Of a DNA stretch of 33,435 nucleotides, positions 10,270 through 32,348 are shown in pieces (the stretch's first letter is position 1; the number at the start of each line of letters is the position of its first letter). Source of the stretch: Thermodesulfobacteriota bacterium (lineage in GTDB: Bacteria > Desulfobacterota > Deferrisomatia > Deferrisomatales > JACRMM01). The notes below the pieces were generated by a model. That model saw only the letters and a list, made by a program, of their open reading frames with translations. It did not search any database and was not told the origin of the DNA. A program made the position numbers and the translations under genes. The stretch lies in NCBI GenBank assembly GCA_040756475.1, contig JBFLZB010000029.1:1-33435 (forward strand), given 5' to 3'.

Positions 10270-10359
10270 GCAGACGGCTCCCGGAGGGTAGGGGTGCGGG
10301 GAGCGAGTCTCCGGCAAATCCCCTGGGGATGCAAGATGCCGGGACCTCACCGGGCACCG

Positions 10360-10531
10360 CCACCTGGGTGGTGAGCGGGATCCGGGAGCCCCTGCGCTTC
10401 GCCCGCAATTCGCGCCAGTTGGACGAAGGACCTTTCGCGAAACCGGTGCGCCCGGCTTCACCGCTGTTCCCAAGTTGTGGCGGATCGGTCGATGCGATAC
10501 GGGGCCAGGCTCCGGGGCTCCCGGATCCCGC
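10360..10531 (+). repeat. Covarying palindromic repeat, copy A (upstream of recR)
   Basis: Arms 10375-10392 (GCGGGATCCGGGAGCCCC) and 10514-10531 are perfect 18 bp inverted repeats enclosing about 120 bases. A near-palindromic CCACCTGGGTGG at 10360-10371 precedes it, as it does in copy C. The interior aligns with copies B and C, notably the CGCAATTCGCG block after the left arm. Arm bases differ between copies but always pair. It lies between the minus-strand methyltransferase and recR, ending 118 bases before the recR start. Confidence 0.85.
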
Positions 10532-10649
10532 CCCGAGATGAGGTGCCTGTTCCTGGGCTTCCTGGCAACTGGTTGGGGGATTGCGTGGACCGCCCGGACG
10601 GATTCGGTTACCTTTCTGCCCGAACCCTTCGCTCGCAGAGGCATGCCCC

Positions 10650-18978: not shown

Positions 18979-19092
18979 CGATGGGTCCTCGGTCGCGGGT
19001 GCGCCAAGGCTACGATCAAACGCGCTCGATTTCAACCGCGGGAGCCGAGCCCTGGGTTGCGCCGGTGTCGCGGATCTACGGGTGAGCGGAGA

Positions 19093-19250
19093 GCGGGTTC
19101 GGGGAGCCCCTCCCCTTCGCCGCGCAATCCGCGACAGTTTGAGGAGGCAGCCCCGGGGGACCCGGTGCGACGAGCGTCGTCCCCGCAGGGAGGGTCGGGC
19201 CCCTCGGTCGTTGCGGGGCGCGGCTACGGTCCGGGGCTCCCCGAACCCGC
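19093..19250 (+). repeat. Covarying palindromic repeat, copy B (upstream of iorA)
   Basis: Arms 19093-19110 (GCGGGTTCGGGGAGCCCC) and 19233-19250 form a perfect 18 bp inverted repeat. Compared with copy A, the left arm reads GGTTCGGGG instead of GGATCCGGG, and the right arm carries the matching changes. The interior shares CGCAATCCGCG and GAGGAGGCAG with copy C, and GCCCCAAGA with GGTGGATT follow the right arm. It lies between the divergent tatT and iorA genes, 103 bases before the iorA start. Confidence 0.88.
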
Positions 19251-19288
19251 CCCAAGAAGAGGCGGTGGATTTGGGGTGCGGCCCGCCC

Positions 19289-19318
19289 TTGCCGGGGGCG
19301 GCTCGAGACTGCTACAAG
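19289..19318 (+). promoter_or_regulatory. Possible promoter of iorAB
   Basis: TTGCCG at 19289-19294, an 18-base spacer and TACAAG at 19313-19318 lie 35 bases before the iorA ATG. The pair sits 38 bases after repeat copy B. The better pair upstream of moeA sits at almost the same distance from copy C, which supports both. Confidence 0.45.
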
Positions 19319-19353: not shown

Positions 19354-21120
19354 ATGAGCGAGCTCCTTTCCGGCAACGAGGCCCTGGCCCGGGGCCTGTA
19401 CGAGGCCGGCGTCACCGTGGCGGCGGGCTACCCGGGCACCCCCTCCACCGAGATCCTCGAAGCCCTCAGCCGCTACAAGGACGAGGTCTACTGCGAGTGG
19501 AGCCCCAACGAGAAGGTGGCCTTCGAGGTGGCGGCCGGGGCCGCCCTGGCCGGGGCCCGGGCCGCCTGCACCATGAAGCACGTGGGCCTCAACGTGGCTG
19601 CCGACCCCCTCATGACGCTATCCTACATCGGCACCCGGGGCGGCTTCGTGGCGTGCGTGGCCGACGACCCGGGCCAGCACTCCTCCCAGAACGAGCAAGA
19701 CACCCGCCACTACGCCCGGTTCGCCAAGATCCCGGTCTTCGAGCCGGCCGACTCCGGCGAGGCCAAGGAGCTGGTGGCCCTGGCCTTCGAGGTGTCCGAG
19801 CGCTTCGAGACCCCGGTGATCCTGCGCACCACCACCCGGGTGAGCCACTCCCGGGGGCTCGTGACCCGCGGGGAGCGCCGGACCCCGCCCGCCGTCGCCT
19901 TCGAGCGCGACCCTCCCCGGTACGTGCCCATCCCCATCTGGGGCCGCAAGATGCGGGTCAAGGTGGAGGAGCGCCTGGGCCGGCTCGCCGAGGAGGCCAG
20001 CCGCTCTTCCGCCAACCGCTTGGAATGGGCCGACCGGCGGCTCGGCATCGTTGCGGTGGGGGTGGCCTACGGGTATGTGAAGGAGGTCTTTCCCGAGGCC
20101 TCGGTGCTCAAGCTCTCCTGGTGCTACCCCTTTCCGGACGCGCTCCTGCAGGAGTTTGCCGCGGGGGTCGAGCAGGTGCTCGTGGTGGAGGAGCTCGACG
20201 ACATCGTGGAGGAGCACGTAAAGGCCCTGGGGGTCCTCTGCCGGGGCAAGGACGTGGTGGCCCGGATCGGCGAGCTCTCCGCCGCCCGCCTGCGGGAGAC
20301 CCGGGCCCGGCTCGAGGGGCGCGACCCCGCCGCCGCATCGGTGCCCCTGGCCCCCGAGGCCGCGGACCTGCCGGGCCGCCCCCCGGTGCTCTGCCCCGGG
20401 TGCCCCCACCGGGGCGTCTTCCACGGCCTGGGCAAGCTCGACGTGGTGGTCACCGGCGACATCGGGTGCTACAGCCTGGGGGTGTTCCCGCCCCTCAACC
20501 GCACCGACACGATCCTGTGCATGGGGGCCGGGGTCACCATGGCCCACGGCATGGACCGGGCGGGGGAGCCCCGAAAGGTGGTCGGCATCGTGGGGGACTC
20601 CACCTTCTTCCACTCGGGCATCACGGGGCTGCTCGACATCGCCTACAACCGGGGCGGCTCCACGATCATCGTGGTGGACAACCGCACCACCGCCATGACC
20701 GGCCACCAGGACCACCCGGGCACGGGCCGCACCCTCATGGGGGAGCCCACCGGAGAGGTTTCCATCGAGGCCCTGGGGCGGGCCTGCGGCATCCGCCGGG
20801 TCGTCACCGTGGACCCCTACGACCTCAAGGCCACCGCGGCGGCCCTCAAGGCCGAGGTGGAGGCGCCCGAGCCGTCGCTGGTGGTCTCCCGGGCCCCGTG
20901 CCCGCTGCACACCCGGAGCCGGCTGGGTCCGCCCCGGCGCATCGACCCCGAGGCCTGCGTCCAGTGCGGGAGCTGCGTCAAGCTCGGGTGCCCGGCCATC
21001 GAGAGCGACGCCGAAGCGGTGCGGATCAACGAGCTCCTGTGCCTGGGGTGCGGGATGTGCGGGCAGGTCTGCAAACTCGACGCCGTGCGGACGGAAGGGG
21101 AGGAGGGCGGCCATGGCTGA
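19354..21120 (+). CDS. iorA: Indolepyruvate ferredoxin oxidoreductase, alpha subunit
   Basis: A 588-residue IorA. The N-terminal pyrimidine-binding domain opens with LLSGNEALARGLYEAGVTVA and contains YPGTPSTEILEAL and EWSPNEKVAFEVAAGAALAG. The C-terminal half has the thiamine diphosphate-binding domain (LCPGCPHRGVFHGL, VTGDIGCYSLG, GIVGDSTFFHSGITGLLD). The last roughly 60 residues are a ferredoxin domain with CVQCGSCVKLGCP and CLGCGMCGQVCK, ligands for two [4Fe-4S] clusters. It oxidatively decarboxylates aryl-pyruvates from aromatic amino acids to aryl-acetyl-CoA, reducing ferredoxin. ATG 19354 follows GGAGG. iorB overlaps its end by eight bases. Confidence 0.96.
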   Translation: MSELLSGNEALARGLYEAGVTVAAGYPGTPSTEILEALSRYKDEVYCEWSPNEKVAFEVAAGAALAGARAACTMKHVGLNVAADPLMTLSYIGTRGGFVACVADDPGQHSSQNEQDTRHYARFAKIPVFEPADSGEAKELVALAFEVSERFETPVILRTTTRVSHSRGLVTRGERRTPPAVAFERDPPRYVPIPIWGRKMRVKVEERLGRLAEEASRSSANRLEWADRRLGIVAVGVAYGYVKEVFPEASVLKLSWCYPFPDALLQEFAAGVEQVLVVEELDDIVEEHVKALGVLCRGKDVVARIGELSAARLRETRARLEGRDPAAASVPLAPEAADLPGRPPVLCPGCPHRGVFHGLGKLDVVVTGDIGCYSLGVFPPLNRTDTILCMGAGVTMAHGMDRAGEPRKVVGIVGDSTFFHSGITGLLDIAYNRGGSTIIVVDNRTTAMTGHQDHPGTGRTLMGEPTGEVSIEALGRACGIRRVVTVDPYDLKATAAALKAEVEAPEPSLVVSRAPCPLHTRSRLGPPRRIDPEACVQCGSCVKLGCPAIESDAEAVRINELLCLGCGMCGQVCKLDAVRTEGEEGGHG

Positions 21121-21772: not shown

Positions 21773-21830
21773 CATCGAAATCGAAATCGAAATCGACCCG
21801 GACCCCGATACCGATACCGATCTTGATCGA
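21773..21830. repeat. Tandem hexamer array (AATCGA and ACCGAT units)
   Basis: Starting at 21773, ATCGAA is repeated three to four times, followed by CGATAC units repeated about three times and a TTGATCGA end. The second unit is the same hexamer as in the inverted array at 688-759, and both arrays lie in the gap after a gene. Here the two halves are not complementary, so no long hairpin is expected. Confidence 0.8.
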
Positions 21831-21995
21831 GGGAGAGGGGGGGAACCGCTTCTCGGGGGTGACGTCATGAGGGAGCCCGGCCGAAAGGGTACACCCGATC
21901 CAACGGCGGGGTCCGCACCCGGGGGCCGAGTCGCCCGGACAGGTCCCCGTGTGCCTTCCGCTGGTTTGGGGCGCCCCCCCGGGAGGGGTCCTGCC

Positions 21996-32060: not shown

Positions 32061-32104
32061 CCCGACACGACCCCGCGCAAGCCTCCCCGCTGCGCCACGA
32101 TCCA

Positions 32105-32278
32105 CCACCTAGGTGGCAAGCGGGGTCCGGGAGCCCTTGCGCTCCGCCCCGTAATCCGCGATGTCCGGAGGCAGCGTAGCCGAGGGAGCCGGCGCGCCGA
32201 GCCTCACCGCTTTCGGCCTCGTTGCTGCGGTTCGGTCGAGGCGGTACGGGGCTGCGCTCCAGGACTCCCGGACCCCGC
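32105..32278 (+). repeat. Covarying palindromic repeat, copy C (upstream of moeA)
   Basis: Arms 32120-32133 (GCGGGGTCCGGGAG) and 32265-32278 pair perfectly over 14 bases, with one mismatch and three more pairs inward. A perfect palindrome CCACCTAGGTGG at 32105-32116 precedes it, as in copy A. The interior matches copy B closely (GTAATCCGCG, GGAGGCAG). Relative to copy A, the change from GGATCC to GGGTCC in the left arm is matched in the right arm. It ends 138 bases before the moeA start. Confidence 0.87.
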
Positions 32279-32318
32279 CCCAAAGATTTGGTGGTGGATT
32301 CTGGTGCCCCCCCTTTCC

Positions 32319-32348
32319 TTGACGCTCTTCGGCGCCGGTTGCTAGCAT
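32319..32348 (+). promoter_or_regulatory. Sigma-70-like promoter of moeA
   Basis: TTGACG at 32319-32324, an 18-base spacer and TAGCAT at 32343-32348 lie 68 bases before the moeA ATG and 40 bases after repeat copy C. The -35 box matches five of six bases, the -10 box four of six. Confidence 0.55.

Follow-up and report, generated by a model that had tools for sequence, protein, structure and literature searches.

Few bacterial transposons are known to home in on promoters. TnGBS/ISLre2 elements insert 15-17 bp upstream of the -35 box of sigmaA promoters and generate 8-9 bp target duplications, and some ISKra4 elements insert 13-17 bp upstream of the -35 box of such promoters; the promoter-targeting groups described in that work are all Mutator-like, with duplications of 8-9 bp (PMC3942029). 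Guerillot et al. 2014 attributed the orientation of insertion to asymmetric inverted repeats, and proposed a contact between the transposase and the RNA polymerase initiation complex (PMC3942029).

Here, we compare with these systems a short repeat that occupies about 100 places in one bacterial genome (4.99 Mb in 369 contigs). Three of its copies lie in the window, the whole 33,435-bp stretch of DNA under analysis, which is contig 29 of that assembly.

Anatomy, target duplications and distribution of the repeat

The preliminary description had placed the copies at 10375-10531, 19093-19250 and 32120-32278 (157, 158 and 159 bp), with terminal 18-bp arms paired at 18/18, 18/18 and 17/18 positions and with interiors that align. 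All of this was confirmed, including the arms themselves. When the copies are aligned together with their flanks, these intervals prove to be the inner palindrome alone: conserved sequence extends ~25 bp past it on both sides, giving a full repeat unit of ~208 bp (Table 1). The complete element runs CC...GG and is bounded by outer terminal inverted repeats (left, CCNNNATCCRCCRCC; right, GGYGGTGGATNNNGG). The CCNNNATCCRCCRCC end motif stands at both element ends, as in a MITE, and has 126 exact matches genome-wide versus 12 for the reversed control.

Table 1. Positions of the repeat and associated features in the window, with members of the long subfamily
Feature	Position	Strand	Description
Element copy 1	10350..10556	+	~207 bp; both outer inverted repeats decayed; from the end-unit profile
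Copy 1, family-profile match	10357-10545		
Copy 1, left inner arm GCGGGATCCGGGAGCCCC	10375..10392	+	
Copy 1, right inner arm	10514..10531	+	complementary to left arm, 18/18
Element copy 2	19068..19275	+	~208 bp; right outer repeat 19261-19275; left outer repeat decayed; left boundary approximate and read by eye
Promoter-like TTGCCG/TACAAG beside copy 2	19289..19318	+	-35 starts 14 bp past right end
Element copy 3	32095..32304	+	210 bp; intact outer inverted repeats 32095-32109 and 32290-32304
Copy 3 flanks	32091..32094 (TGCG), 32305-32308 (TGCC)		imperfect 4-bp target duplication, 3/4 match
Promoter TTGACG - 18 bp - TAGCAT beside copy 3	32319..32348	+	
Long-subfamily copies	L022, L025, L088, L086 and others		246-268 bp

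The 381 kb retrieved from the same genome contain 160 ends, of which 32 are single (some of these cut by contig ends) and the rest belong to 64 paired elements. The paired elements span 93-268 bp, with a modal length of 208-211 bp (n = 64). The size is that of a MITE (under ~600 bp, no coding capacity): ~208 bp is too short for a transposase gene. A long subfamily (246-268 bp, near 259 bp) carries an extra ~50 bp, GCTGGCCAGGAAGGGCGAGTGTCGCGGAGCCCAGGAGGGGCGGGAGCGA, immediately inside the left arm.

The window also contains tandem 6-bp units of the ATCGGT/ACCGAT type at 687-774, which form a 29-bp inverted repeat (97% complementary) around a 16-bp loop; a similar array lies 21 kb away, at 21774-21842.

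The target duplication is 4 bp long. Of 62 paired elements having both flanks, 25 carry an exact 4-bp duplication, versus 0.91 with permuted flanks; a smaller first test had given 20 of 41 versus 0.73 expected. The same 62 elements gave no signal at 6, 8 or 9 bp, and not one exact duplication of 8 or 9 bp. A duplication of fixed length, the further mark of a MITE, is thus present at 4 bp. An alternative length of 5 bp was rejected, the extra G being part of the right end. Contigs 4 and 50 each hold two elements at one locus, with exactly one 4-bp duplication between them. Tandem elements with this spacing (L005 ~1356-1470 and L019 ~1687) show the pattern of repeated insertion at the same position.

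Outer terminal inverted repeats together with 4-bp target duplications identify the repeat as a non-autonomous DNA transposon, a MITE of ~208 bp. Given these marks, the preliminary suggestion that it is not a transposase-bound repeat is not supported. In palindromic form, intergenic location and high copy number the element does resemble REP/REPIN sequences, and both single ends and inverted pairs are present, as would suit a repeat mobilised by a RAYT (Y1) transposase. REPINs, however, are not known to make target duplications. The clear 4-bp duplications and conserved outer terminal inverted repeats found here set the element apart from that class and make a RAYT-mobilised repeat very improbable.

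All copy numbers for the element are lower bounds. A BLAST search with copy 1 returned at least 108 matches in its own genome (40 of 165 candidates scored), and a 16-bp arm pattern, allowing up to two mismatches, occurs 467 times versus 276 for the reversed control. The element is absent from 11 other genomes of the same order and from all 58 other relatives searched. Within the order, two weak matches were dismissed as apparent chance similarities of coding sequence, and the end motif is mildly over-represented in five genomes, where the listed sites include no close inverted pairs. Neither the plasmids, phages and viral contigs searched nor an exact-pattern search of genome contigs beyond its own genome yielded a copy. 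By ribosomal S2, the host stands closest to a Deltaproteobacteria MAG (73%) and to other MAGs, and it probably belongs to a deltaproteobacterial-type lineage.

Promoters in phase with the left end

Outward from the left ends, conservation is confined to TTGAC (positions 14-18; T 0.73, T 0.65, G 0.69, A 0.51, C 0.56) and TAnnnT (positions 37-42). Together, these motifs form a sigma70-type promoter with a 17-bp spacer, directed away from the element. Its -35 box starts 14 bp outside the left end, leaving 13 bp between. When flanks were scored with a consensus independent of the element data, a -35 offset of 13-15 outscored all others among 70 offsets in 42 of 64 paired elements and 17 of 21 single left ends. 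Promoter scores of at least 8/12 were reached at this phased offset in 42% of paired elements and 57% of single left ends, versus 0.2-0.3% at other offsets. One end is in phase with a promoter in 45 of 62 paired elements (null expectation, ~2.4% per end), and in about a quarter of copies no such promoter is recognisable. That the promoter might be part of the element was rejected: the spacer between the two is not conserved, and the target duplication sits within it.

Right ends, taken overall, have no promoter signal in their outward flanks. A small minority are phased, including those of window copies 2 and 3. Downstream of the promoter-like pair at copy 2, a 588-aa frame begins with a start codon at 19354; at copy 3, in the same minority orientation, the -35 box begins 15 bp past the right end. 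By crude gene calls, most copies have a left-end gene that points outwards, and only 2 of 54 copies are flanked by convergent genes. The distance from the element to the start of the predicted downstream gene is mostly ~60-100 bp.

Single left ends of ~43-57 bp, variably truncated, retain the phased promoter (L061, L071, L073, L077, L085, L128 and others). These could be relics or functional sites.

This phasing could arise in two ways. If insertion were wide, selection might have kept those copies that stand in phase upstream of promoters, the left end serving as an insulator or upstream activator site and the single left ends as its functional core. Consistent with such retention, about a dozen left ends lacking a right end still have a phased promoter, and the left arm with the stretch inside it is less variable than the loop. 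The age of the copies argues otherwise: phasing is equally frequent in young copies, with exact duplications (19/25), and in decayed copies, whose duplications match at two positions or fewer (16/24). The downstream genes, judged by eye, look like those for ProS, TyrS, EF-G, L21, LexA, XerC, transketolase, NadA and the RNase P protein, which appear to be unrelated housekeeping genes, and the proposal that they form a regulon was rejected on that account. Selection would also need to have purged nearly all other intergenic insertions. For these three reasons targeting of insertion is the likelier explanation, and retention of a regulatory function appears improbable.

Covariation in the inner palindrome

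Each window copy folds better than 200 of 200 dinucleotide shuffles (z -4.2 to -4.7). Pairing persists in the 18-bp arms and in two inner stems across 52 full-length copies, whose mean pairwise identity is 79%; of 936 arm cells, 889 are Watson-Crick and 6 G-T. A tree from which the arm columns were left out requires at least 15 double substitutions in the stems from one Watson-Crick pair to another, among them four at column pair 31/179, three at 43/167, and two each at 34/176 and 55/155. In the true register 40 cells are altered on both sides; shifting the partner lowers this to 0-18. The covariation of the arms, first noted from the three window copies, is therefore real in the family as a whole.

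The preliminary description had read this covariation as selection on structure. Maintenance of pairing stands; selection as its cause is matched by another process, since the covariation fits palindrome self-correction equally. Changes from C-G to G-C occur without any intermediate among the 52 copies, so that correction of the palindrome in one step fits as well as selection.

The same description had named either RNA or a cruciform as the selected structure. On the RNA side, the repeat would be a structured RNA, cis-regulatory or small, with pairing kept by selection. The 15 independent compensatory double changes, with few intermediates, and the fold z-scores below -4 are in keeping with that proposal, although palindrome self-correction also yields covariation. 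The hairpin is outside the 5' UTR of the gene served by the phased promoter, because this promoter lies outside the element and fires away from it. Its outer inverted repeats mark the element as a transposon, as do the tandem insertions and the target duplications. A comparison with the Rfam covariance models, proposed in the preliminary description, gave no match to the element; the top-scoring model, for a microRNA (E 0.57), fell far short of its threshold. A structured RNA is thus very unlikely. A simpler role for the inner palindrome would be as a DNA hairpin used in transposition.

Mobilisation and comparison with known systems

Taken together, the anatomy and the phasing make it highly probable that this MITE was moved by a promoter-directed transposase, which joined it ~13 bp upstream of the -35 hexamer. 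The proposed mechanism would involve: binding of a transposase, supplied in trans and possibly of the DDE type, to the outer terminal inverted repeats; its direction to sigma70-type promoters, either by docking on bound RNA polymerase holoenzyme or by direct recognition of the promoter; and insertion with duplication of 4 bp of target, centred ~11 bp upstream of the -35 box. The left end would usually face the promoter, an orientation perhaps set by the asymmetry of the two element ends. The inner palindrome may form part of the transposition substrate, its symmetry kept by selection or by self-correction.

Promoters, or perhaps the RNA polymerase bound to them, are thus the probable target of the missing transposase. 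A search of the 369-contig assembly for six transposase families and for long-range end pairs did not find a cognate enzyme. The preliminary description had counted a match to a known MITE or REP family with a cognate transposase against its structural reading; MITE anatomy is what was found, and the enzyme was missing from this search. For MITE status, a partner transposase with the same ends is helpful and not required.

The element ends resemble those of ISEcp1, of the IS1380 family. IS1380 was rejected as mobiliser, PF13701 being absent from the genome, as are IS701, DDE_Tnp_1 (PF01609) and Transposase_mut (PF00872). For ISLre2/UPF0236 there is a sub-threshold match only, on a resident ISKra4 gene. 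This resident ISKra4, the one intact insertion sequence of its kind in the genome (L131 2394-4042, contig 79), is bounded by GGGAGCATTCGC ends and flanked by an 8-bp duplication, ACCATAGA; both its ends and its duplication length differ from those of the element, and it was rejected as the autonomous parent. The C-terminal fragment of a second ISKra4 lies on contig 84 (L132). A longer autonomous copy would supply a single end with a partner and a matching duplication; an inward search begun at each of the single ends gave one low-quality chance match.

A broader reading is tentative and less likely than not: a non-Mutator transposase with 4-bp duplications may have evolved promoter (RNA polymerase) targeting independently, giving rise to a high-copy MITE family whose members tag dozens to ~100 promoters of one deltaproteobacterial-type genome with near single-base precision. 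Finding 4-bp duplications and this same position in a 208-bp element suggests that promoter targeting may be commoner than the few known cases, or multiply evolved. The ~100 natural insertions give direct access to the question of how RNA polymerase might be docked on by a transposase, and the phased copies flag likely sigma70 promoters in a lineage about which little is known.

Among bacterial MITEs, Correia elements (CREE) and others are likewise short, mostly intergenic and high in copy number, with terminal inverted repeats; in the account drawn on here, Correia elements have internal promoters, whereas the promoter beside the present element is external host DNA at a fixed distance (PMC10969869). 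In the parts of that MITE review considered, promoters are placed within MITEs and no host promoters at a fixed distance are described (PMC10969869).

The closest precedent is provided by the TnGBS/ISLre2 and ISKra4 transposons. The ISKra4 group (p-MULT 4) shares with the element the insertion of some members 13-17 bp upstream of sigmaA promoters, and has one intact transposase gene in this genome; the ends and 8-bp duplication of that resident ISKra4 are unlike the element's. TnGBS/ISLre2 (p-MULT 3) shares a fixed distance to the -35 box, a single orientation and a terminal C. These transposons encode their own transposase, for which the ~208 bp here leave no space, and p-MULT elements measure 1.1-52 kb (PMC3942029). 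The fixed promoter distance of the p-MULT groups is found here, with the left end 13 bp from the -35 box; their 8-9 bp duplication is replaced by one of 4 bp, and because of this length the element is not filed with the p-MULT transposons. TnGBS/ISLre2 joins at 15-17 bp with an 8-9 bp duplication and the present element at 13 bp with a 4-bp one, yet by our own arithmetic the centre of the duplication is nearly the same in both, ~11 bp upstream of the -35 box.
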